A stretch of DNA of 44,366 nt. It comes from a virus. Of this stretch, positions 13,051-44,366 are shown in pieces. The notes beneath the pieces were generated by a model. That model saw only the letters and a list, made by a program, of their open reading frames with translations, was not told the DNA's origin and made no database searches. Numbering within the stretch: the stretch's first letter is position 1; each line of letters starts with the position of its first letter. The stretch is from IMG/VR virus record IMGVR_UViG_3300030104_002307, positions 1-44,366 of that record; one strand, written 5' to 3'. Position numbers and translations under genes: made by a program.

Positions 13051-16000
13051 GTGATTGAGATACCATTAACAGATAATAAGAACGTAATATTAGGTACTGA
13101 GTCCGGTAGAACAGGTGTTACGCCCCACACGGCTCAACTTCTAAAGGATGCTGACGCGGGCTATTTATTCTATGGTGATGGGTCTACCGTAGGTGGTGTT
13201 TCTGTTGACGTTAGGCCGACTACTGCTAAAACCGCAGATTATACTTTAGTAAGAAAAGACGAAGCACGTTTAATTACATTTAATTCCGGTAGTGGTGTAA
13301 CTTTAACAATACCTACTAATTCTAGTGTACCTTTTGTTACAGACTTAACAGAAATACACGTATTAAATATAGGTGCGGGTGCAGTAACTCTTTCGGGTGC
13401 ATCCGGTGTAACAGTTAATGGTAGCACTACTTTAGGCCAATATATTAAAGCAACTATTAGAAAAACAGGTACAGACACTTGGATAGTTATAGCGGCATCA
13501 GCAGGTGATATTGAGGGTGTGGTAGCAGGTACAGGTCTTAGTGGTGGTGGTACTTCCGGTACTGTAACTCTGAATAACACGGGCGTAACATCCATCGTAG
13601 CGGGTAGTAATATTTCTATAAGTGGTGCTACGGGTGCGGTAACAGTAACAGGTACAGATACAAACACGCAACTTTCTACTGAGGAAGTGCAAGATATTGT
13701 GGGTGCTATGTTCTCTTCCAATACCGAAACAAGAATATCCGCTACCTATGAAGATGGAGACGGGACTATTGACTTGGTAGTAGACGATATGACGGCAAAT
13801 ACACAGTTAACTACCGAAGAAGTACAGGATATTGTAGGGGCTATGGTATCTAGCAATACTGAAAGTGGTATTGCGGTAACGTACGAAGATGGTGATGGTA
13901 CTTTAGATTTTGCAGTAACAAGCCAAACAGATAATAATTTTACGACAACACTAAAAAACAAACTAGACGGAATAGAGGCTAGTGCTACTGCTGACCAAAC
14001 TGCGGCAGAAATTAGGGCTTTGGTCGAGTCTGCTTCTGATTCTAATGTATTTACTGATGACGACCACACAAAGTTAAATGCTATCGAGGCTAGTGCAACG
14101 GCAGACCAAACCGCATCTGAAATAAGAACATTAGTTGATTCTGCATCAGACTCTAATGTGTTTACAGACGCAGACCATACTAAACTAGATGGTATCGCGG
14201 CAAGTGCTAATAACTACGCTATCTCATCCGATTTGTTAGATGAAGATAACATGGCTTCTAACTCAGCAACTAAGGTTGCTAGTCAACAGTCAATCAAAGC
14301 GTATGTTGATGCTGAAGTTGCCGGAGTTGTAGACTCTGCACCCGCAGCACTAAACACACTTAATGAGTTGGCCGCCGCTTTAGGTGATGATGCTAACTAT
14401 GCTACAACTACTTCTACTGCTTTGGGTAACAGATTAAGAACAGATGTAGACAGTCAAGGTCTTACTTCTACACAACAAGGTAATGCTTTAACAAACTTAG
14501 GTATTACTGCTACTAAAGCAGAAATAAACATTCTCGATGATGGTCTTTCTGCAAGTGATATTCCAAGTCTTGCGGCAAGTAAGATTACAAGCGGTACATT
14601 CGCAACTGCTAGAATCGCTGATGATGCTATCACCGCAGGTAAATTAAATGTAAGCGGAGACGGTTCTGCTACACAATTCCTTCGCTCTGATGGGGATGGC
14701 TCTTTCTCATGGGCCGTACCAACAGATACAAATACTCAATTAACACAAGAACAGGTTGAGGATTTCGTAGCAGGGGTAGTAACGGCAGGTTCAAATGTAA
14801 GTGTTACTTACGATGATGCAGCCGGAACTTTAACTATCGCATCTACTGATACAAACACGCAGTTAACAACGGAAGCGGTACAAGACATAGTGGGGGCTAT
14901 GTTTTCATCAAACACAGAAACTAGAGTTAGCGTAACTTATGATGATAGCGACGGTACTATTGATGTTGTAGTAGATGACATGACGGCTGATACTAATACA
15001 CAACTAACTCAAGAACAAGTAGAGGATTACGTAGACGGTTTGTTGACCGCAGGTAGTAACGTATCACTTACTTATGACGATGCGGCGGGTACTCTAACTA
15101 TCGCGGCAACAGACACTAATACTCAATTAAGTACAGAACAAGTCCAAGATATAATAGGTGCTATGGTCGCTAGTAATACAGAAAGCGGAATAACTGTAAC
15201 TTATGAGGACGGCGACGGAACTTTAGATTTCGCAGTTGCTAGTCAAACAGACAACAACTTTACAACTACTCTAAAGAATAAGTTAGATGGTATCGCTACA
15301 TCTGCTAATAATTATACACACCCTAACCATAGTGGTGAAGTAACTTCTACTGCTGATGGTGCTACTGTTATAGCATCAAATGTTGTTGATGAGGATAATT
15401 TAAAGGTAACTAACTCTCCAACAGATAATTACCTTTTAAGTTATGACGATGCAAGCGGTGGGTTTACTTGGGTTTCCGCAGGTTCGGGAGAAGCAAATCA
15501 AAATGCCTTTACAACCATAGCAGTAAGTGGTCAAGATAATGTAGTAGCAGATTCTACTACTGATACACTAACTTTGGCGGCAGGTTCTAATGTAACTATT
15601 ACTACAACCGCAGGTAGCGATACAGTAACTATTGCTTCTGCTGATACTAATACACAGTTAAGCACCGAGCAAGTTCAAGATATAGTCGGGGCTATGTTCT
15701 CTTCTAACACAGAGACGAGAATAAGTGCGACTTACGAGGACGGTGATGGGACTATCGACCTTGTTGTTGACGACATGACTGCGAATGATAATACATTTAG
15801 ACCTGTTACCGCAGGTGGTAACACACTAGGCTCTAGTGAGACATTAGCATTTACCGCAGGGTCTAATGTAACTATTACAGAAAGCGGTGGTGCAGTAACA
15901 ATAGCGTCAACAGACACTAACACTAATACTCAATTATCCGATGAACAGGTACAGGACATTGTAGGGGCTATGTTCTCAAGTAACACCGAAACAGGTATAG

Positions 16001-18882
16001 CGGCGACTTATCAAGACGGAGACGGAACAATAGATTTAGTTGTTGGAACACTAAATCAAGATACAACCGGAACTGCATCTAAAGTTACTGTATCTGACAG
16101 TACGGCTAACACTAATTTCCCTGTTGTATTCCACGATGAATCCAATGCTCTTTTAGATGATACAGGGGCTTTAAGATACAACCCAAGCACAGGAACATTA
16201 CTCGTTCCTAATTTGAATGTGGCGGGTACGACAACACAAGTAGACACAGTAACTATGGAAGCGAGTAATGCAATTGTCTTTGAGGGGGCTACTGCTGATG
16301 CTTATGAAACTACATTAACTATTACTGACCCAACTGCTGATAGAACAATTACATTACCAAACGCTTCGGGTACAGTTTCTCTTTCAGATACACAATTAAG
16401 TACCGAGCAGGTTCAAGACATCGTTGGTGCTATGTTTAGTAGCAATACAGAGACTAGAATTAGTGCAACCTATGAGGATGGGGACGGAACAATAGATTTA
16501 GTCGTTGATGACATGACGGCAAACGACAACACTTTTAGAACAATTACTGCGGGCGGTAATACTCTTGGTGCAAGCGAAACACTAGCCTTTACCGCAGGTT
16601 CAAACGTAACAATAACAGAATCCGGCGGTGCGGTTACTATTGCGTCTGCTGATACTAACACTCAACTATCCACAGAACAAGTACAGGATATAGTAGGTGC
16701 TATGTTTACTTCTAATACTGAAACTAGAATTAGTGCGACTTATGAAGATGGAGACGGCACGATAGATTTAGTAGTAGATGACTTAAATACAGATACTCAG
16801 TTAAGCACAGAACAAGTACAAGACATAGTTGGTGCTATGTTTAGTGGTAACACGGAAACAAGAGTATCAGCCACATATCAAGACGGTGATGGGACTATTG
16901 ATTTAGTGGTCGATGACATGACCGCAAACACTACGTATACGGCAGGTACTAACCTAACATTAAGTGGTACAGAGTTTAGTGTTGATGATGCTTTCTTGAA
17001 GAATGATGCTAACGATACTACAACAGGAACAATTACTGCGGGTGGATTTACTACGGCAGGTTCTATTACACTTGGCGGTCATGCGGTTGCCGACATAGAC
17101 ATAGGTAGTGAGTTTGTTGATACTGACGACCACTTGATGTCATCCGGTGCAATTAAAGAAAAGATTGAAAGTTATGGTTATGTTACTAGCGGTGGTGCTA
17201 GTAATATTAATGGTTTATCTGATGGTAAGACTTCAACATACTCTTTATTCTTAGGTGTCGCACCAACTAACACACAAGATTACAACGTAGCAGTAGGGAT
17301 AGGGGCATTAGACGCATTGAACGGCACTAATGGAACAAAGAACGTGGCGATAGGGTACAATACTTTAACGGCAAACACAGAAGGTTTCAAGAACGTAGCG
17401 ATAGGCTATGCGGCAGGTTCAGCGAATACTGACGCAGACCAAAACACTCTTGTTGGTAGTCAAGCAGGTACGGCAGTAACAACAGGCGGTGCTAACACCG
17501 CAATAGGATGCAACGCTGCCTACGCATTAACTACGGGAACTTATAACACTTTTGTTGGTGCATTAGCCGGAGACGGATTTGATACTGAAAGTGAAAATAC
17601 GGCCATTGGATATGGGGCATTTGGTGGTGCAGTTGATGGTGGAGATGGGAATGTAGCAATAGGAATGTATGCTCTCGACGGCCCGGTAGCAGATGACCAT
17701 AATATCGGTATAGGAGTTCACGCATTAAGTAACTTGGCTCATGCTGATGATGTGATAGGGATAGGCCATCAAGCAGGTTACAGTATCACGACAGGTAACA
17801 GGCAAGTATTAATCGGGGCGCAAGCAGGTTATGATTTAACAGACGGCTCAGAAAACGTAATGATAGGTTATCAAGCAGGTACAGATACTACGGGAAGTAA
17901 CAACACTTTCATAGGAACGGAAGCAGGTTACGACAACCATGATGGTGCAGGTAACGTATTCGTTGGTAAACAGGCGGGTTATGGAAGCAGTACATCGGGA
18001 GATTACAATACGGGTCTAGGTACATCGGCGTTGAACTCATTAACAAGTGGTGCTAATAACATCAGTATAGGTTGGTTTAGCGGTGATGCAGTAACCGAAG
18101 GTAGTAGAAATATATTCATCGGTAATCAAGGCGGTAACAATGTTACAACAGGTAATAACAACGTCGTTATTGGTAACGCCGATGTTTCTTCTGCGACAGG
18201 ACATGACCAATTATCAATAAGTTCCGGTGATGGAAGCCCTGTATGGATGACGGGCGACTCATCCGGTGTCGTTGATTTCCCTAATGGTTTTACAAACAAT
18301 GGTTCAGCAGTTGGTGGAGACACAACAAGACTTGCTACTATGAAAAGCAAATACAAATCTGCCGCAGATAAATTACATTTATCACAAGGGCCACACATGG
18401 GTCAAGTAGCCAAGAACTTTTCACAAAATCAATTCCTTATCTTCCAACCATTTTATTCCGGTGCGGGCGGCGAGTTTACAAAAGCAAGTTGTACTTTTAA
18501 CTCCGGTGTAACAGGTGCAAGTGCAGGTATTTGTATTTGGGAAGAGGACAGTAATGGTTTGCCTAAGACAAGACTTGGTAATGAAATAGAGATTGATGGA
18601 ACATCAAGCGGTGTAGCAACTACCACAGGATTAAGTATAACACTAAGTGCAAATACAAAGTATTGGGTATCATGGAGAACACACCCCGACGCAAGTGGAA
18701 CGTGTGATTTCTCCGGTTATGAGATTGCTATGGAGCCGTTAGTGATGGGCGACCAAGACATACCGTTCTGTAATGTTTTGTTTTATGTTAGTAATGCTGC
18801 CGCACCAAGCAGTTTAAGTCAAGGTAACTTTACAAGCACTTACAGACAAAACCTACCGAAGATGTGGTTAGAACAGAGTTGA
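13051..18882 (+). CDS. Giant repeat tail fibre with YadA-like head repeats
   Basis: A 1943-aa virion adhesin. GTG 13051 is the only start after an in-frame TAG at 13039 and is preceded by a GGGG SD-like run. Residues about 1-200 form an attachment region containing VVAGTGLSGGGTSGTVTLNN, as in many fibre shafts. Residues about 205-1300 hold eleven copies of a ~45-residue unit (TQLSTEEVQDIVGAM... and two variant VEDF/VEDY copies) plus coiled-coil-like spacers. Residues about 1430-1710 are tandem 14-20 residue repeats of NVAIGY/NTLVGSQAG type, like the Hep_Hag/YadA head of trimeric autotransporters. The C-terminal ~200 residues form a distinct tip domain with GVTGASAGICIWEEDSNGLP. It is presumably trimeric and recognises the host surface. 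The next gene is a likely fibre chaperone. Confidence 0.85.
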   Translation: MIEIPLTDNKNVILGTESGRTGVTPHTAQLLKDADAGYLFYGDGSTVGGVSVDVRPTTAKTADYTLVRKDEARLITFNSGSGVTLTIPTNSSVPFVTDLTEIHVLNIGAGAVTLSGASGVTVNGSTTLGQYIKATIRKTGTDTWIVIAASAGDIEGVVAGTGLSGGGTSGTVTLNNTGVTSIVAGSNISISGATGAVTVTGTDTNTQLSTEEVQDIVGAMFSSNTETRISATYEDGDGTIDLVVDDMTANTQLTTEEVQDIVGAMVSSNTESGIAVTYEDGDGTLDFAVTSQTDNNFTTTLKNKLDGIEASATADQTAAEIRALVESASDSNVFTDDDHTKLNAIEASATADQTASEIRTLVDSASDSNVFTDADHTKLDGIAASANNYAISSDLLDEDNMASNSATKVASQQSIKAYVDAEVAGVVDSAPAALNTLNELAAALGDDANYATTTSTALGNRLRTDVDSQGLTSTQQGNALTNLGITATKAEINILDDGLSASDIPSLAASKITSGTFATARIADDAITAGKLNVSGDGSATQFLRSDGDGSFSWAVPTDTNTQLTQEQVEDFVAGVVTAGSNVSVTYDDAAGTLTIASTDTNTQLTTEAVQDIVGAMFSSNTETRVSVTYDDSDGTIDVVVDDMTADTNTQLTQEQVEDYVDGLLTAGSNVSLTYDDAAGTLTIAATDTNTQLSTEQVQDIIGAMVASNTESGITVTYEDGDGTLDFAVASQTDNNFTTTLKNKLDGIATSANNYTHPNHSGEVTSTADGATVIASNVVDEDNLKVTNSPTDNYLLSYDDASGGFTWVSAGSGEANQNAFTTIAVSGQDNVVADSTTDTLTLAAGSNVTITTTAGSDTVTIASADTNTQLSTEQVQDIVGAMFSSNTETRISATYEDGDGTIDLVVDDMTANDNTFRPVTAGGNTLGSSETLAFTAGSNVTITESGGAVTIASTDTNTNTQLSDEQVQDIVGAMFSSNTETGIAATYQDGDGTIDLVVGTLNQDTTGTASKVTVSDSTANTNFPVVFHDESNALLDDTGALRYNPSTGTLLVPNLNVAGTTTQVDTVTMEASNAIVFEGATADAYETTLTITDPTADRTITLPNASGTVSLSDTQLSTEQVQDIVGAMFSSNTETRISATYEDGDGTIDLVVDDMTANDNTFRTITAGGNTLGASETLAFTAGSNVTITESGGAVTIASADTNTQLSTEQVQDIVGAMFTSNTETRISATYEDGDGTIDLVVDDLNTDTQLSTEQVQDIVGAMFSGNTETRVSATYQDGDGTIDLVVDDMTANTTYTAGTNLTLSGTEFSVDDAFLKNDANDTTTGTITAGGFTTAGSITLGGHAVADIDIGSEFVDTDDHLMSSGAIKEKIESYGYVTSGGASNINGLSDGKTSTYSLFLGVAPTNTQDYNVAVGIGALDALNGTNGTKNVAIGYNTLTANTEGFKNVAIGYAAGSANTDADQNTLVGSQAGTAVTTGGANTAIGCNAAYALTTGTYNTFVGALAGDGFDTESENTAIGYGAFGGAVDGGDGNVAIGMYALDGPVADDHNIGIGVHALSNLAHADDVIGIGHQAGYSITTGNRQVLIGAQAGYDLTDGSENVMIGYQAGTDTTGSNNTFIGTEAGYDNHDGAGNVFVGKQAGYGSSTSGDYNTGLGTSALNSLTSGANNISIGWFSGDAVTEGSRNIFIGNQGGNNVTTGNNNVVIGNADVSSATGHDQLSISSGDGSPVWMTGDSSGVVDFPNGFTNNGSAVGGDTTRLATMKSKYKSAADKLHLSQGPHMGQVAKNFSQNQFLIFQPFYSGAGGEFTKASCTFNSGVTGASAGICIWEEDSNGLPKTRLGNEIEIDGTSSGVATTTGLSITLSANTKYWVSWRTHPDASGTCDFSGYEIAMEPLVMGDQDIPFCNVLFYVSNAAAPSSLSQGNFTSTYRQNLPKMWLEQS
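13663..16920 (+). repeat. Eleven copies of a ~135-bp fibre repeat, synonymously diverged
   Basis: The encoded unit TQL(S/T)xExVxDIVGAM-x5-TEx...YxDGDGTxDxxV occurs eleven times between about 13663 and 16920, nine copies with VQDI(V/I)GAM and two with VEDFVAG/VEDYVDG. Neighbouring copies differ at most third codon positions (for example GTGCAAGATATTGTGGGTGC versus GTACAGGATATAGTAGGTGC) while the protein stays nearly identical. Confidence 0.85.
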
Positions 18883-28100: not shown

Positions 28101-31100
28101 ATGGTAAGAAGTGTAACAAAGAAATATCAAGTGTGGCTTGCGGGCTACTACGACGATTTTAATGGGGCTAGAGCAATAGGTGATTTTACGGCCAAGCCTT
28201 CTGATACAACAACGTATACTCATCTTAGCAGTCATTTTGGTAATCCTCTAAACGGCGAGGCGTTTCTAAATCCTCGTTACAGATGGTCTGCCGAAGAAAG
28301 AGAGCAAGATAGCAACGCAGGTAATAAAGTATCGACGACTGCAAATAATATGTTACAAAACGACGGTATATTTGAGTGGCTTACATTTGATGATACAAGA
28401 CTTGGAGATGCTTCGTGGACGGGAAGAGTACAGTTACAATATCCCGACGGACACGTAGCAAACAGATATAAGTTCAATAATGATTCTACATATGGTAGTG
28501 ATTTCTACCAAAGATTTATCAACGGACATAATAGCGACGGTTCATATATAGTTCCTACCGGAGAAAACGATGCTTCTTTTGGTAGGTCAGATATGAAAAG
28601 ATACGATGCTACTAACTACCAAGCGAAAAATGCAGGTAAAACATCTACAACAGGTAACTTCGTACAGAGGGCGCACCTTACAGGCTCTTGGATGGGAGAA
28701 AAGTTAGCACAGACTTCTTCTAACGAACCGTCTTTATTGTTTGCAGAAATTACTTCGCCCTCAAAACAACCGTTTCTATGCGTACAGACAGTCAGAGAAA
28801 ATATTGATGACGACTTTGCTGATGTACCCGCTATCATATATGACGGGCCATTAAACAGTAGATTGGATGGCGATATATTTACCGCAAGAATAGCCGTAAG
28901 AAGTCATATTGCCGAAGGTGTAGGTGTTTGGGATGATATTAAAGTTAAGTTTGAAATAGGATTCCCTACTGCACAAGCAGGTATACTCAACGACGAAGGC
29001 TACACAGGCGTAGCCGCAATAACACAATCTTTAGACCTAAAGACATTTACAGACTCAACAGGTACAGTAGCATACGACAATCAAGGTCTTATAACAAGTG
29101 GTAACAGTTGGTCTTATACAAACGATAACTCTTGGCTTGACGTTGATTTCGTATTTGATTACACGAATACTAAATATGATTGGTACGTAAATGGTGTAAA
29201 ACAAAATAACACACCGGAAGATATGAATGCCGGAACTACTGCCGCAGGTATTTATGGTTATCAATTAAGTATAGAGTCCGATGAGACGGACGGCGACTTT
29301 GGTTATGTATCATATCTTATGTTAGATAGAGTAGGTCTTGTTAGGTATTTATCAGATGATTTTACATCAAGCAACGAACCACAGATAAGTAAATTAGAAG
29401 TAAAACAAAGTAATAACGGATTATCTACTTGTGTAGTAAACATATTCGATGATGCGGGTTTGACGGGTGGTGCTAGAGGAAATGTAGCATCGGATTATCT
29501 TCTTAATTTAAGAGGATTATTTGTATCTTCTACACCTATTGATTGGAACTTGTTGGTATTTGGTGATACAGATAAAAGAATTGATAGACCTATTTGGAGA
29601 GGATTAGTAGATACTTTTAACATAAATCAAAAAGGTAGGTCTAGGGAAATTATATTGAAGGCAGTAGATTCTTTAGATGCTTTAAATAATCAAGTTCCTC
29701 TATGGGATGTAGGACAACAAGGTGAATCAGAGACAGGAGAAGATAGTAATTATTGGGATTATGACTCGCAGGGTTTTAGAGACGCTATGTATTTAGGAAC
29801 AGGCAAATTAAAATTACTTAGTAACGATGTTGGGTTTGAAAGCACTAACAGTTACTTAGAGTCATCTACACAAAGAACACAGTTAGGTTCGGGTCATCCA
29901 ATACAAATGTATAACAACGAAGATTCTACAAATGGCCCAAACGATATAGAAGATTCTTATGAGGGTCTTGCTATCTTAGGATTTGTAGAAAAAAGACACG
30001 CAACAGACCACAAAACTATCGCAATCTTAGCAGAAGGAAGTCATACTTTGGGTGCGGGAGATACAATAAGTATAACTAACACATCTAATCATAATGATGC
30101 TAGTTTACAAATTGAAAGTGAAAGTAATAATGAATTAACATTTACAGGTAATGGTACAAGTACGGGGGCGGCTACCTATTTAGCATACGTTCCCGAAACC
30201 GCAAAAATAGTATATGCAGGGCAACAACCACATAATAGTGCGGCAGAATCATATTTGGATGACGACGGAAACACAGTAGATAATCCTATACCGTTAATTT
30301 CTTGGACGCAGTTTACTAATAATGTTTTTACTACTGCGACCACAACAACAGGGCCATATATTTTTCATTTCTTTTTTGATGCAAACCCTAATCTAAAAAT
30401 AGGCGATTATTTTTACATGAACAGAAGAAACATGGCTCACGCCGTACCTTCTGTAACATACTTTCATCACGAATTGAGACACAAGGTAGTAAGTGTTAAG
30501 AAGTTTAGAAATTACTTTGACACAAGTGGGGCTACCCCTGTTTTGTATAGTGTAGAAACGGAAACTCCTTGTGTTTCACAATTTGGTAATTCACAGGCAG
30601 TAGATGGTCTTTTAGACGGTACGGCAAGGTATGAGTGGTCAAAAGATACCGGACAAACAAATGGTCATTACACTACTGCTATAAATGCAACAAAAACCAA
30701 GAATAGAAGTGTTCATGCTCGTTGGATGAGAGATTTGCCTAAAAGCCTTTGGTTTCAATATCATTTTGGTGTAGTACAAGAAGCGGCGGCAAATACATCA
30801 CAAGACCTTAGCAATCAGACAATAACTTCTTCTACTAAGGTTATACAAATACCACAGGCAACTTACAATTCCATACCTACACATGGCGTAGCGGAAATAT
30901 GGAGTGTTCCTTCGGTGGGTGCAGAAGTCTATCAAGAAAAGTTTATTTATCAAGGAAAGGTACAGGTTAGTAGTAATTATTACATGGTAGGGTGTAAATA
31001 CATAAACAATTCTTATTCAGTTTCTAGTAATAATTTTAAGGTTAAAGTACAGACTATATCTGATAACTACAAACATATATGGCTTCTTTGGTCGGATATG

Positions 31101-34100
31101 AGAAACAACGGTAACGCCAATGCAGATGCGTCTACAAGAAAGAAAAACTTTGGTTTACAATACCCACTACATGATAATTATGATTTTGACTTGTTCTATG
31201 TAGACCAAGTAGACCAAGAAGGGAACATAGATAAGTTTGCTTCGTTAAAGGTTGGAGATGACTTAAGGGTGTGGAATCTCGATTCTACTAGCGACCCTTG
31301 TACGGGCGGTGCTTTTTCTAAGCCCGCAGACTACGCTAACTCAGAATCCTGTACCATAGCCCTAAATAGCACTAATACATTAAGAGTAACAGATAACAGT
31401 CATGGTTTGTCTAACGATGATTATGTTTACATATACAACAGTCTAGCACATGACGGGCTATATCAAATAGAAAATGTAGGAACAAACACCTTTGATATAG
31501 CACAGGGTTGGACGACAGGTGGTACGGCAGACGGTGGTAATACAGGTGGTGTATTTTACGCACCAATAACAGGCTCTCATAAAGACTTATCTACATATCA
31601 AAATTGGGAAGATAAGGCGGGGTCATTTTTAGTTATAGATTCTGCACCTTTCTTTAACCTTAATACTCATGCTAACGGTGGTAAGACAGGGCAGATTGCG
31701 GGTGGCTCTACTGATTTAGGAGATTATGTAGCAACAAGGCATGGTTTCCCTAAACTAATAGACAATTATTGGGAACAGGCTACTGCTACTTATCAAAACA
31801 CAGATAACGATTTATTAGAGCATCCAAACCAAGATAAATTAATTTCTGATGCTCAACTATCACCGGATGGATTTATTTTTGGTGATGTGGGTATTACTGT
31901 TGAAGATGCTAGAAAGTTTGATGACTCCGGTTATGGTATATTAAATACAGTTATGAATAGAAATGGTAACGAAGAAGATAATACTATGTTTTACTTTACT
32001 TGGAAAAATAAATTAGAAACTAAATATAGTAGTGGTAGTGGTGCTACTGCCGTTGCTCTTGTACCTAGCAATTCGTCATCCGGTACTACCCTTACAGGTT
32101 TTTGGGAAGGCACTAGAGCAATAAAATTAGTAAACAGTAGTGGTTCATCCCCCGCCGAATCTCATTACAGTAGTGGTGTAAGGGCGGGAATGACTTTAAT
32201 TAGAACCCCTAATGGTGGCGGCACTAAAACTAGACATACTATACTTAGAGTAGGAGACGAAGCAAATGAAGGTAACATACATGGTGCTAACCAAGAAAAC
32301 ACATTAATTGTAAGTAAATCTACTGTTAAAACAACTTATGATGGTAGCGGTAATTTAGTTAGTGGTAATGATGTTAGTTGGAGTATAGGCGATACTTACG
32401 AAATACCTATACAACTAGGTAAAGTTAAGGTAATAAATAGTGGTGCTATTACACTTTTTCCTAACATGACTATAAACGAAAAAGAACAAGCAATAAATGA
32501 CCAAATGAACATAACACCCGAAGAATGGTTTTATTATGGTTTCCCTGTTAGTTATACTACCGACACTACAAAGGAAACTACACCGGAACACTTTGAGGTT
32601 CATGCTACGGTGCAATCTTCTTATATGTTAAGATTAATGATGCACATGAATGGTTTTTATGAATCGACTAATAGCGGTACTTTTTGGAATCACGATAAAC
32701 TGAGATTTCTTTGGAATGCTTCTATTATGGACTCTTGGCTACCTTCTGCTAAAGTAAGTTGTGTTTTTGATATAAACAATGTACCTATTACATCTATGAT
32801 GACTACTTACAATGACACAAGTAGCAACGATTCATACGGTAGTGTATTAGACAGTAGAGGTAAAACTTTAGGTAGTATAGTAAAAGATTTAACTAAGAAA
32901 ACAGGACACGGTACTACTAACTCACTACCAACTACTTTTTCTTATCTTATAGGTAGAGACAATAGAATAGAAATTAGACCTAAATACAATTCCGGTATTT
33001 CTTTTAACCGTAATAATATGTTAATATCAAGACTAGATGCACAAGTTTCCGGTCAAATAACGAACGTAAGAGTTTATTATAACGACAACCAATCCTTTGT
33101 CGATTATCCGGCAACAAATCTAACAGACACTACACGATGGAAGATTGTGGAACACCCAAAAATACTAAATAGTAAAGAAGCATTGATAGTAGCAAGAAAA
33201 CAATACAACACCTACAATAACAATTCTCTTAGAATGGAAGTAAGCCCTATGTTAGATACTGATGTAGAAGATAAAATGATACATACGGGTAGATATGGAT
33301 ATATCTCAGACCCATACATAGCACTACAAGGTACGGACGACACAGAAGCAAACGTAACTAATTGGACTTACTTGGGTACAGGTGGTGTTTTATTCCCCGG
33401 AATGGTAAATGCTTTACACGGCAACATGAGTACAGACGTAGACCCAATAGAAGATAGATACGGTATAAGTCAAGAAACAGGGTCGGGAGACATTACATGG
33501 AATAACAATTATTATTGGTATGGTAGTAACTCTATATCTAACGCGGTACAAATAGTTCATATACCTAATGATACTCCGTTTGTTGGAAGCACCACAGGAC
33601 ACCCTTTAAGAATATGGGTAGATTTAAAAAATCAAACGGGTACAAATATAGATGAAGCAGAGTTTACTGTTCATATTGCAGATTACAGATTTGATACTAA
33701 TTTGACACACGCCTTACAGAGTTCTCAACTTAGTAACAATACATCGTCTAAAGACGTTAAGCATAGTGGTTATTATGAAATAGATATACCCGCATCTTAC
33801 TATTCCTCACAGGGCAAAATAATTTTTTCATTCAACGCAGAATACTGCCGAGCGTTGCTACGTCATAGGTGTGGCGACCCATCAAAAACAAACAGTAGTG
33901 TGGGTAATTCTACACATAGCGTAGATGCTAATTATTATATTCTTGATAGTAGCGTAGATAACGGTAGTGGTGCTATAAACAAAAATAGTATTTTCCCTCT
34001 AGGTATGAGACCATATACAGAGATGGGCGGTGGATTCCGTAACCAAAGAAAGGAATGGTACGCACCAAGAATACAAATATGTAGAGACCTTTCCTATGTA

Positions 34101-35126
34101 CCTGCAAGTTATGTAGGTGTTACTGATTTAGGTCTTGAAATGAACAATGAAACTATGGTTATACAGTCGGTACAATGGGGTGCTTCTGCTAAAGGTATAG
34201 ATACGGTAAAACTAACTTTAGAAAGAGATGAGTCTTTATCTTCTGATAGGTTACTAAGTTTCCTTCTAAGTGGAGACAACGATGGTTTACAGTCCGGTAA
34301 TAATGGTGGTAGTAGTAGCACCACACCACATTGGGACGCGGGTTGGGGTATAGGATTAGTACCGCCATCACAATATCCTAACGCAGACCATGACCCTAGT
34401 AGTGAGACAGAGTATGATGGTTATGAAGATACAGGAGACGGTACATCATTCGGTGGCGGCATTACAGTAGGTAAGATGAGTAAGAATACTTACGGAAATA
34501 TAAAGGGTAGAATGAATCTTAACAACGACAATCTTTCCGGTGATGCACAGTTTTCTGTTTTAGGACAACAAAAACCTAGTGTAACTCCTTCATCTATGCG
34601 TGGTATAGAGGGTATGGATGTAGATATTACACCTATAAGCGGAACGGCAGTTAAGACGGCAGACGGTTATATTTTTGCAGGTAAAGGTTTGCAGGGTGGA
34701 GACTACAAAGTAGCATCTCAAGAAGTTTCTTTAGAAACAACCTTTGTAGTACCGGAAGATGTTTTGAGCAACAGAATCAGTATAGAGGCAAAGGCTACCC
34801 ACGCACCAACGAGTATTGCGGGTAACAAGACTGCTCTTTTATACGTTACTGTTACTAATCAAGATAACAACGCAAGCGTTACACATACTGCAAGAATAGG
34901 TGCAGGTAAAAATAATGAAACATTAAGTATTTTACCCGAAGTTCCGTTGAGTGGATTGAATAAAGCAGGTAGAAAAATTAAGGTAACTATAACTAGAAAA
35001 CCTGCTACAAGCGACGACGATTCTGACGCTAGTAGTGTTGTACTAAAAAACATTAGTGTGAAGATGCAAAGAGCATCAGCACATACTAAATCTTCTAGCA
35101 ACAATTTTTCTGCAAGCACAGGCTAA
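28101..35126 (+). CDS. Giant tail hub/tip protein
   Basis: A 2341-aa protein directly after the tape measure, the position of tail tip/hub proteins. Around residues 430-535 it resembles tail-hub beta domains (KLEVKQSNNGLSTCVVNIFD, PIWRGLVDTFNINQKGRSRE, IILKAVDSLDALN). Around 1600-1720 there is a second hub-type stretch (ISRLDAQVSGQITNVRVYYN, ALIVARKQYNTYNNNSLRME). The rest is beta-rich with lectin-like segments, and the last ~200 residues form a separate beta-sandwich preceded by a Gly/Ser linker. It is much larger than lambda gpJ, so hub, tip and receptor-binding modules appear fused. It converges with the ERCC4 gene, the two stops overlapping by 4 bp. Confidence 0.75.
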   Translation: MVRSVTKKYQVWLAGYYDDFNGARAIGDFTAKPSDTTTYTHLSSHFGNPLNGEAFLNPRYRWSAEEREQDSNAGNKVSTTANNMLQNDGIFEWLTFDDTRLGDASWTGRVQLQYPDGHVANRYKFNNDSTYGSDFYQRFINGHNSDGSYIVPTGENDASFGRSDMKRYDATNYQAKNAGKTSTTGNFVQRAHLTGSWMGEKLAQTSSNEPSLLFAEITSPSKQPFLCVQTVRENIDDDFADVPAIIYDGPLNSRLDGDIFTARIAVRSHIAEGVGVWDDIKVKFEIGFPTAQAGILNDEGYTGVAAITQSLDLKTFTDSTGTVAYDNQGLITSGNSWSYTNDNSWLDVDFVFDYTNTKYDWYVNGVKQNNTPEDMNAGTTAAGIYGYQLSIESDETDGDFGYVSYLMLDRVGLVRYLSDDFTSSNEPQISKLEVKQSNNGLSTCVVNIFDDAGLTGGARGNVASDYLLNLRGLFVSSTPIDWNLLVFGDTDKRIDRPIWRGLVDTFNINQKGRSREIILKAVDSLDALNNQVPLWDVGQQGESETGEDSNYWDYDSQGFRDAMYLGTGKLKLLSNDVGFESTNSYLESSTQRTQLGSGHPIQMYNNEDSTNGPNDIEDSYEGLAILGFVEKRHATDHKTIAILAEGSHTLGAGDTISITNTSNHNDASLQIESESNNELTFTGNGTSTGAATYLAYVPETAKIVYAGQQPHNSAAESYLDDDGNTVDNPIPLISWTQFTNNVFTTATTTTGPYIFHFFFDANPNLKIGDYFYMNRRNMAHAVPSVTYFHHELRHKVVSVKKFRNYFDTSGATPVLYSVETETPCVSQFGNSQAVDGLLDGTARYEWSKDTGQTNGHYTTAINATKTKNRSVHARWMRDLPKSLWFQYHFGVVQEAAANTSQDLSNQTITSSTKVIQIPQATYNSIPTHGVAEIWSVPSVGAEVYQEKFIYQGKVQVSSNYYMVGCKYINNSYSVSSNNFKVKVQTISDNYKHIWLLWSDMRNNGNANADASTRKKNFGLQYPLHDNYDFDLFYVDQVDQEGNIDKFASLKVGDDLRVWNLDSTSDPCTGGAFSKPADYANSESCTIALNSTNTLRVTDNSHGLSNDDYVYIYNSLAHDGLYQIENVGTNTFDIAQGWTTGGTADGGNTGGVFYAPITGSHKDLSTYQNWEDKAGSFLVIDSAPFFNLNTHANGGKTGQIAGGSTDLGDYVATRHGFPKLIDNYWEQATATYQNTDNDLLEHPNQDKLISDAQLSPDGFIFGDVGITVEDARKFDDSGYGILNTVMNRNGNEEDNTMFYFTWKNKLETKYSSGSGATAVALVPSNSSSGTTLTGFWEGTRAIKLVNSSGSSPAESHYSSGVRAGMTLIRTPNGGGTKTRHTILRVGDEANEGNIHGANQENTLIVSKSTVKTTYDGSGNLVSGNDVSWSIGDTYEIPIQLGKVKVINSGAITLFPNMTINEKEQAINDQMNITPEEWFYYGFPVSYTTDTTKETTPEHFEVHATVQSSYMLRLMMHMNGFYESTNSGTFWNHDKLRFLWNASIMDSWLPSAKVSCVFDINNVPITSMMTTYNDTSSNDSYGSVLDSRGKTLGSIVKDLTKKTGHGTTNSLPTTFSYLIGRDNRIEIRPKYNSGISFNRNNMLISRLDAQVSGQITNVRVYYNDNQSFVDYPATNLTDTTRWKIVEHPKILNSKEALIVARKQYNTYNNNSLRMEVSPMLDTDVEDKMIHTGRYGYISDPYIALQGTDDTEANVTNWTYLGTGGVLFPGMVNALHGNMSTDVDPIEDRYGISQETGSGDITWNNNYYWYGSNSISNAVQIVHIPNDTPFVGSTTGHPLRIWVDLKNQTGTNIDEAEFTVHIADYRFDTNLTHALQSSQLSNNTSSKDVKHSGYYEIDIPASYYSSQGKIIFSFNAEYCRALLRHRCGDPSKTNSSVGNSTHSVDANYYILDSSVDNGSGAINKNSIFPLGMRPYTEMGGGFRNQRKEWYAPRIQICRDLSYVPASYVGVTDLGLEMNNETMVIQSVQWGASAKGIDTVKLTLERDESLSSDRLLSFLLSGDNDGLQSGNNGGSSSTTPHWDAGWGIGLVPPSQYPNADHDPSSETEYDGYEDTGDGTSFGGGITVGKMSKNTYGNIKGRMNLNNDNLSGDAQFSVLGQQKPSVTPSSMRGIEGMDVDITPISGTAVKTADGYIFAGKGLQGGDYKVASQEVSLETTFVVPEDVLSNRISIEAKATHAPTSIAGNKTALLYVTVTNQDNNASVTHTARIGAGKNNETLSILPEVPLSGLNKAGRKIKVTITRKPATSDDDSDASSVVLKNISVKMQRASAHTKSSSNNFSASTG

Positions 35127-43204: not shown

Positions 43205-44366
43205 TCACTCCCTCGGTGCTATAATCGCGGCATCGGTCATTAAAACCAATGCGGCGACAGACACGGCACTCTCTAAACTGTTAATAACTACGTTAACAGG
43301 GTCATAGACCCCATCATCTTTAGCCTTTCTCATTTCTCCTGTCTTACCACATACATAATGTTCCTTACCTAGAGAAAACTTACGGTCTACCGAGCCACTA
43401 TTGGTTATAATAGTCTTGATAGGTGTTAACAAACCACTCTCAAACAATTTAAACACATCACCGCCATACCCTGCTTCACTTAACGCTTGCGAAGCATGAT
43501 ACAATGTTGCACCACCGCCGATGACTACACCGGAGTCAAGAGCATGACGACAAGCGTTAACTGCATCGTCTACCCTTTCCTTTCTTTCTACCTGCTCTAC
43601 CTCGGTAGCACCCCCAACATAAATTGTTGAGATGCCCGTAGTAAGTCTTGATAGACGGTTATTCAATTGCTCTGCTAACCATTCATGTTCAGAGCCTTCT
43701 ATATTTTGATGTAAGGTATCTAGGTGTGTGGTATCAGCCACTTCCTTTCTACTTATGACAGTTGTTCTAGCAGAAGCCTCTATACGGTCTGCATCACCCA
43801 TCATGTTAGACGATATATTATTGATACTTTCTTTTAAGGTAGTAGAAAATAACTTAGCACCCGTCAACGCCGAAATATCTTCAAGCCACGCTTGCTTCTG
43901 TTCGTGCATACCACTAGGTTTTACCATACAAGCACTTACCTTACCCTGTATGATATTTACTAAAAGGTTCTGTACCATTTGTGGGTTGTAGTCCGCACAA
44001 AAGAATATGATAGGTCTACCATCCTTTACTGCTATTTCCAACGAAGGGACTAAAGCATTGAAGGTTTCAATCTTTTCAGTAGTACAGACCACGTAAGGAT
44101 TTTCTAAAACGCATTTACTTCTCGGTGAGTTAGCCATAAGATTATGAGCATACCCCGCGTTTATTTCCACACCGGATGAATCTTTAATATATGTTTCTGT
44201 CGTCGGTGATGTTTCTATGGTTATAGCACCTGTTGAGCCTACTTCTGTAACTACATCAGCAATCATAACACCTAACTCTTCATCGTTGTTAGCGGCGATA
44301 GTAGCCACATCCACCAAATCGAAATCCGTTATAACCTCATCTCTAAGATACTCAATGGTCTGCTCT
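43205..44366 (-). CDS. groEL-like: Group I chaperonin (GroEL-type), N-terminus beyond right edge
   Basis: The frame stays open to the right edge, so about 386 residues are visible, ending in AAIIAPRE. It is GroEL-like rather than thermosome-like: DVATIAANNDEELGVMIADV, GGATEVEQVERKERVDDAVN with the conserved Asp for ATP hydrolysis, and SGVVIGGGATLYHASQALSE all match group I chaperonins. The first ~150 residues, including the ATP-binding P-loop region, lie outside the window. The C-terminal GGM tail of E. coli GroEL is absent. No GroES is visible. It probably folds viral capsid, tail or polymerase proteins. A bacterial-type chaperonin beside archaeal replication genes indicates transfer at some stage. 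Confidence 0.9.
   Translation of the reverse strand, partial: EQTIEYLRDEVITDFDLVDVATIAANNDEELGVMIADVVTEVGSTGAITIETSPTTETYIKDSSGVEINAGYAHNLMANSPRSKCVLENPYVVCTTEKIETFNALVPSLEIAVKDGRPIIFFCADYNPQMVQNLLVNIIQGKVSACMVKPSGMHEQKQAWLEDISALTGAKLFSTTLKESINNISSNMMGDADRIEASARTTVISRKEVADTTHLDTLHQNIEGSEHEWLAEQLNNRLSRLTTGISTIYVGGATEVEQVERKERVDDAVNACRHALDSGVVIGGGATLYHASQALSEAGYGGDVFKLFESGLLTPIKTIITNSGSVDRKFSLGKEHYVCGKTGEMRKAKDDGVYDPVNVVINSLESAVSVAALVLMTDAAIIAPRE

Follow-up and report, generated by a model that had tools for sequence, protein, structure and literature searches.

A tail-fibre-like gene in the window analysed here (the complete 44,366 bases of virus record IMGVR_UViG_3300030104_002307) carries eleven copies of a small unit, and the nine long copies, although alike in protein, are random with respect to each other at silent sites. 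We consider it probable that these are old duplicated units with the protein kept by purifying selection, with silent sites drifting and with units turning over.

The following scenario is proposed. The units would have arisen by ancient duplication, as small modules within the body of a modular viral tail fibre. Purifying selection would have held the protein near its consensus while silent sites drifted to the codon composition of each virus, with the consequence that the copies would have lost any DNA trace of common origin. Nor would the array be frozen, since both the number and the order of units differ in a relative; single units in otherwise near-identical fibre genes may have been swapped in place.

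The fibre gene and its units

The preliminary description placed eleven copies at 13663-16920. All eleven unit matches of the record are indeed found there, in frame inside ORF 13051-18882 (+) (Table 1). The copies had been called nearly identical in protein, which is too strong: the nine long units (42 aa each) have a pairwise protein identity of 62-98%, and the two shorter variants at 14731 and 14995 are 38-39% identical to unit 1. The long units do not form one tandem array; they are interspersed with other modules, with start-to-start distances of 135 to 1056 nt. In contigs from viral metagenomes the unit is frequent, with at least 570 of 599 pattern matches confirmed.

Table 1. Features of the tail-fibre-like gene (positions in the window)
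Feature	Coordinates	Strand	Remarks
Tail-fibre-like ORF	13051..18882	+	1943 aa, GTG start; PHROG tail spike and virion structural families
Unit 1	13663..13788	+	long
Unit 2	13798..13923	+	long, variant ending DFAVTS
Second repeated module	13972..14193	+	two adjacent 111-nt copies, 74% DNA identity
Unit 3	14731..14844	+	short divergent type, TQEQVEDFVAG
Unit 4	14854..14979	+	long
Unit 5	14995..15111	+	short divergent type
Unit 6	15118..15243	+	long, variant ending DFAVAS
Unit 7	15649..15774	+	long, equal to the majority consensus of the nine
Unit 8	15925..16050	+	long
Unit 9	16387..16512	+	long
Unit 10	16657..16782	+	long; closest in DNA to a unit of L011 (aa identity 0.95, codon identity 0.72)
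Unit 11	16792..16917	+	long; closest in DNA to a unit of L011 (aa identity 0.98, codon identity 0.65)
C-terminal part	17260..18180	+	short NxxIGxxA-type repeats

The PHROG families match the fibre at residues 1396-1525 (PHROG 4636, tail spike) and 1602-1756 (PHROG 6002, virion structural). The C-terminal part is perhaps the distal region of the fibre, with a putative host-facing role. In the segment pair covering the second repeated module (residues 292-358 versus 329-395) the same codon was used in 15 of 41 cases, compared with an expected fraction of 0.40.

The structure of a unit pair was predicted by a two-unit model built from 67 sequences. The predicted fold is helix-strand-strand per unit (mean pLDDT 79, pTM 0.48). 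The model had no match among PDB structures at E ≤ 0.001; among viral structures 15 matches were found at this threshold, with TM-scores by query length of 0.35-0.49, and 12 of them were unnamed. A profile search of PDB sequences returned two matches, the better one with an E-value of 0.095. The units may build a trimeric shaft, and the modules could serve as structural spacers of the fibre.

A THUMP domain (Pfam PF02926) was considered for the fibre and rejected: the score of 63.9 bits (cut-off 20.6) is reached by the whole protein, while no single stretch passes alone. The Pfam call on the repeats, with an E-value of 1.9e-17, is an annotation trap.

Silent sites among the copies

Among the 36 pairs of long units the mean pS is 0.82 and the mean pN 0.14, with a median pN/pS of 0.20. 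A comparison of dS with dN had been suggested as a check of the scrambling at synonymous sites; Jukes-Cantor dS is saturated, and thus undefined, in 24 of the 36 pairs, while dN is far lower. Units 1 and 7 (13663 and 15649) share 0.98 of their residues at a pS of 1.00, and the same protein identity is accompanied by a pS of 1.04 in units 7 and 10 (15649 and 16657).

Where two long units have the same residue, the same codon is used in 483 of 1174 cases (0.411). This is the value given by shuffling codons, whether pooled over the nine units (0.415 ± 0.012) or within each unit (0.409 ± 0.012); draws from the codon usage of the ORF gave 0.437 ± 0.020 (P 0.107). The longest exact run shared by any two of the nine is 20 nt, against a mean of 21.2 nt after shuffling. 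Serine columns 5, 18, 19, 23 and 26 mix TCN and AGY codons.

Concerted evolution, under which copies in one gene would be clearly more alike in DNA than those of other lineages, is not supported for the window: codon identity among all its eleven copies is 0.426 and that to copies in other viruses 0.412. The pooled genes described below do have a modest excess.

Silent sites are not wholly free, as seven column-residue combinations show codon use unlike that of other columns (chi-square p < 1e-4, the units being non-independent). The effect is small overall, because codon identity of units between viruses is 0.413 compared with 0.410 expected. One exception to the scrambling is Ala15, encoded by GCT in all nine long units, with none of 2000 draws as extreme. 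We rejected its reading as a hidden DNA motif, since it fits a virus-wide codon context before ATG: in the 24 other ORFs of the window (fibre ORF excluded), 18 of the 20 alanine codons preceding ATG are GCT. More generally, over 25 ORFs of the window, now including the fibre ORF, 112 of the 150 fourfold codons that precede ATG end in T, compared with 2337 of 5465 overall.

Purifying selection and age of the units

To measure selection at unsaturated dS we used 37 close pairs of fibre genes. In the units dS was 0.212 and dN 0.022, giving an omega of 0.104, compared with 0.149 in the rest of the gene; pN/pS was lower in the units than in the rest in 28 of the 37 pairs, which are non-independent as the sets share viruses (e.g. 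L121, L127, L133). Together with the saturated dS, this lower omega of the units (0.10 versus 0.15) supports the earlier proposal of old repeats under purifying selection.

The age of the duplications can be judged against a relative of the window, L011. In the rest of the gene aligned between the window and L011 (475 codons) pS is 0.48, while the paralogous units are saturated; thus, the paralogues look older than the split between the two viruses.

There is a counterpoint to our explanation. At a constant rate, an omega of 0.10 and a dS above 3 would lead to a dN near 0.3, while the pN of the most alike copies of the window is 0.04-0.11. Most sites of the unit must therefore be near-invariant. 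Furthermore, protein identity is 0.799 within a gene and 0.750 between viruses (pairs with codon identity up to 0.6), and none of 1000 label shuffles reached this difference; independent old copies by themselves would not lead to such an excess.

Proposed turnover of units

The L011 array has 15 units compared with 11 in the window, the order is rearranged and the C-terminal parts diverge. In the longest stretch shared by the two genes, aa identity is 0.88 and codon identity 0.64 outside the units. For units 3, 4, 5, 10 and 11 of the window the best DNA match lies in L011, and for unit 2 L011 gives the highest codon identity among the matches listed; codon identity to L011 for these six units is 0.65-0.77. 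At the place of unit 1 the L011 unit has an aa identity of 0.64 and a codon identity of 0.36, with flanks at 0.93 and 0.62.

In 26 close pairs we detected 27 divergent patches, seven of them touching a unit; of these seven, four begin within 12 nt of a unit start and one ends within 12 nt of a unit end. Divergence was modestly enriched in units: over the 19 pairs that have units, 218 of 1595 codons inside them were divergent versus 968 of 13191 others (rotation P 0.036).

Three cases were traced. The near-identical genes L102 and L113 have a patch (747-785) lying on a unit (743-784); this is the clearest case, in which one virus has a short unit where the other has a long one, between nearly identical flanks. 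The near-identical fibre genes L037 and L069 show strong divergence in one unit. By DNA, the four versions in these two pairs are closer to sequences in other viruses (0.85-0.92) than to any in the same gene (0.59-0.78); some of the matching viruses are kin of the pair. In the third case, L019 and L101, the best match of each version is the other one (0.84), with no outside source. The divergent single-unit patches may reflect recombination between related viruses; any assignment of its direction and donor would be tentative. The evidence for turnover is thin. Turnover between viruses had not been considered in the preliminary description.

The GC3 of units tracks that of the gene: over 93 genes the slope is 0.93 ± 0.04, compared with 0.94 ± 0.04 for control stretches. 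It follows that exchange, if any, took place mostly among viruses of like composition, or is old.

Alternative explanations

The pooled comparisons in this section were made on the best 80 of >590 candidates per viral scan, i.e. on the genes most similar to that of the window; genes L080-L087, which are copies of the window, and redundant genes (140 reduced to 100) were left out. Genes L164 and above were left out of the close-pair, bias-corrected-null, GC3 and patch analyses.

The same randomness could arise if the copies of an array had been assembled mainly by recent import from different viruses; it would then reflect different origins of the units rather than their age in the lineage. Such import would produce single-unit differences like those between near-identical genes, where two of the three traced cases have their closest matches in other viruses, and units at least 90% protein-identical to unit 7 do occur in 39 other genes, with a mean codon identity of 0.35. 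However, unit GC3 is tied to gene GC3 no less closely than that of control stretches, and the window units with their best DNA match in L011, along with unit 2, look older than the split from that virus. We regard import as the main source of the copies as unlikely. An artefact of sampling is still harder to believe. Because identical repeats are broken up or collapsed when short reads are assembled, arrays of diverged copies would be over-represented among long contigs; at 17 of 79 loci (counted by eye) the fibre match stops no more than 50 bases from a contig end, which would fit frequent assembly breaks within such fibres. Still, such a bias alters which arrays appear and could not create saturated silent divergence, and copies with long identical runs do occur in assemblies. 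The survey of arrays should nonetheless be read with this assembly bias in mind.

The preliminary description had also offered selection against DNA identity: as recombination between identical copies deletes units, silent changes that break homology would be favoured. The window itself goes some way towards this. With a context-aware null, in which codon usage depends on the following base and is learned from sequence outside units, its codon identity of 0.411 is below the expected 0.477 ± 0.021 for usage trained on the fibre (none of 2000 draws as low) and 0.453 ± 0.022 for usage from all ORFs (P 0.027); with unbiased estimators the bias-corrected values are 0.415 and 0.464. Nine of the 16 largest arrays listed fall below expectation (the window, L011, L017, L019, L116, L163, L150, L110 and L006), but the other seven are above it. 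The units of the window are low in comparison with other viruses as well (0.402 versus 0.431); roughly three fifths of the shortfall therefore does not depend on the copies sharing a gene. Shuffling the units' own codons reveals no deficit. Over 67 non-redundant multi-unit genes (731 pairs) there was instead an excess, with a codon identity of 0.461 versus 0.431 ± 0.003 after shuffling and 13 exact runs of at least 30 nt compared with 0.7 expected; the identical stretches between copies reach 80 nt in L131 and 47 nt in L004. In 64 genes under the bias-corrected context-aware null, observed minus expected was +0.007 (bootstrap -0.033 to +0.042). Avoidance of DNA identity thus has no general support in the pooled and shuffle tests, while it is possible for single arrays. 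As a force shaping these repeats we judge it very improbable. A narrower version is equally a long shot: in some long arrays, including that of the window, silent sites would have been pushed below their own codon context since copies alike in DNA lose units, and the copies with identical runs seen elsewhere would be young and as yet unpurged.

Arrays in which the excess of codon identity is particularly strong include L005, L002 and L004. In L005 a single fibre contains 18 units with a codon identity far above shuffle (z 8.0); this array is a candidate for more recent amplification.

Old duplication with purifying selection on the protein retains from the earlier reading what concerned age and selection. 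For silent-site scrambling among protein repeats no special mechanism is needed. Within-unit shuffling, comparison between viruses and bias-corrected codon context are nulls that help to separate age from avoidance. Tail fibres often determine host range, and the one-unit differences suggest that they could be reshaped module by module.

The virus and its possible host

The window encodes a terminase and a portal-like protein (by Pfam, the portal match being below the Pfam cut-off), a tail tube, a tape measure, a family B DNA polymerase (PolB), an ERCC4-HHH nuclease and a GroEL-like chaperonin. The top matches of PolB are in haloarchaeal tailed viruses (25% identity), those of the terminase in Vibrio phages and cyanophages (25-26%) and those of the chaperonin in bacterial phages (32%). 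The chaperonin gene, 43205-44317 (-), adjoins the contig end. Its match covers profile positions 124-488 of 490, and the true start of the gene may therefore be missing from the contig. An ORF of 2341 aa directly after the tape measure, 28101-35126 (+), had no Pfam match.

In 14 control genomes ERCC4 was found only in the four archaea. Among 50 unit-bearing records, which may be fragments, ERCC4 is present in 11 and the chaperonin in nine. Ten genome contigs contain a relative of the unit: eight have bacterial titles, and these may be misbinned viral contigs, one is titled as an archaeon and one as Candidatus Poseidoniales AG-422-I20. The latter contig (NODE_2; L168) has three units in an open frame of 2891 aa, masked stretches included, and is a possible host link to Poseidoniales. 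The style of the name AG-422-I20 is presumably that of a single-cell assembly.

The window belongs to an uncultured marine virus, perhaps one with an archaeal host. We put the archaeal assignment no higher than possible because the chaperonin and the terminase match bacterial viruses best and most of the ten genome contigs are titled bacterial.

Comparison with known systems

Among the titles and opening parts of abstracts listed by searches of the open-access literature we found no paper on such a pattern in phage fibres, and a search of PMC10160649 for selected terms gave no match.

Likeness to archaeal tailed viruses (haloarchaeal viruses and possibly the 'magroviruses' of Poseidoniales) consists of the 25% identity of PolB, the ERCC4-HHH nuclease and the contig titled as Poseidoniales. 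By contrast, the terminase and the chaperonin of the window are closest to those of bacterial phages.

The nearest known parallel to the repeats is found in polyubiquitin genes, where, according to PMC10457151, copies alike in protein also accumulate synonymous differences. The same text presents the roles of purifying selection and concerted evolution as debated (citing Nei et al. 2000, Sharp and Li 1987) and describes polyubiquitin repeats as more alike within species than between species. The window differs in this respect, as its copies, at 0.426 among themselves, are barely above the 0.412 observed to other viruses. The fibre unit is, moreover, interspersed and less conserved than polyubiquitin, and no result here indicates that the two are related.

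Modular tail fibres of marine cyanophages, pelagiphages and others match other parts of the fibre (266 phage records, each covering less than 80% of the query). The unit itself, unlike these fibres, is nearly absent from isolate phages: it was detected in five of 50,697 records at E ≤ 0.001, with an identity of at most 54%. In the fibre of Synechococcus phage S-CREM2 (first 3558 aa) the repeats, different from ours, have a codon identity of 0.617 compared with 0.504 expected. Thus, full randomisation of codons, as seen among the copies in the window, is not universal among phage fibre repeats.
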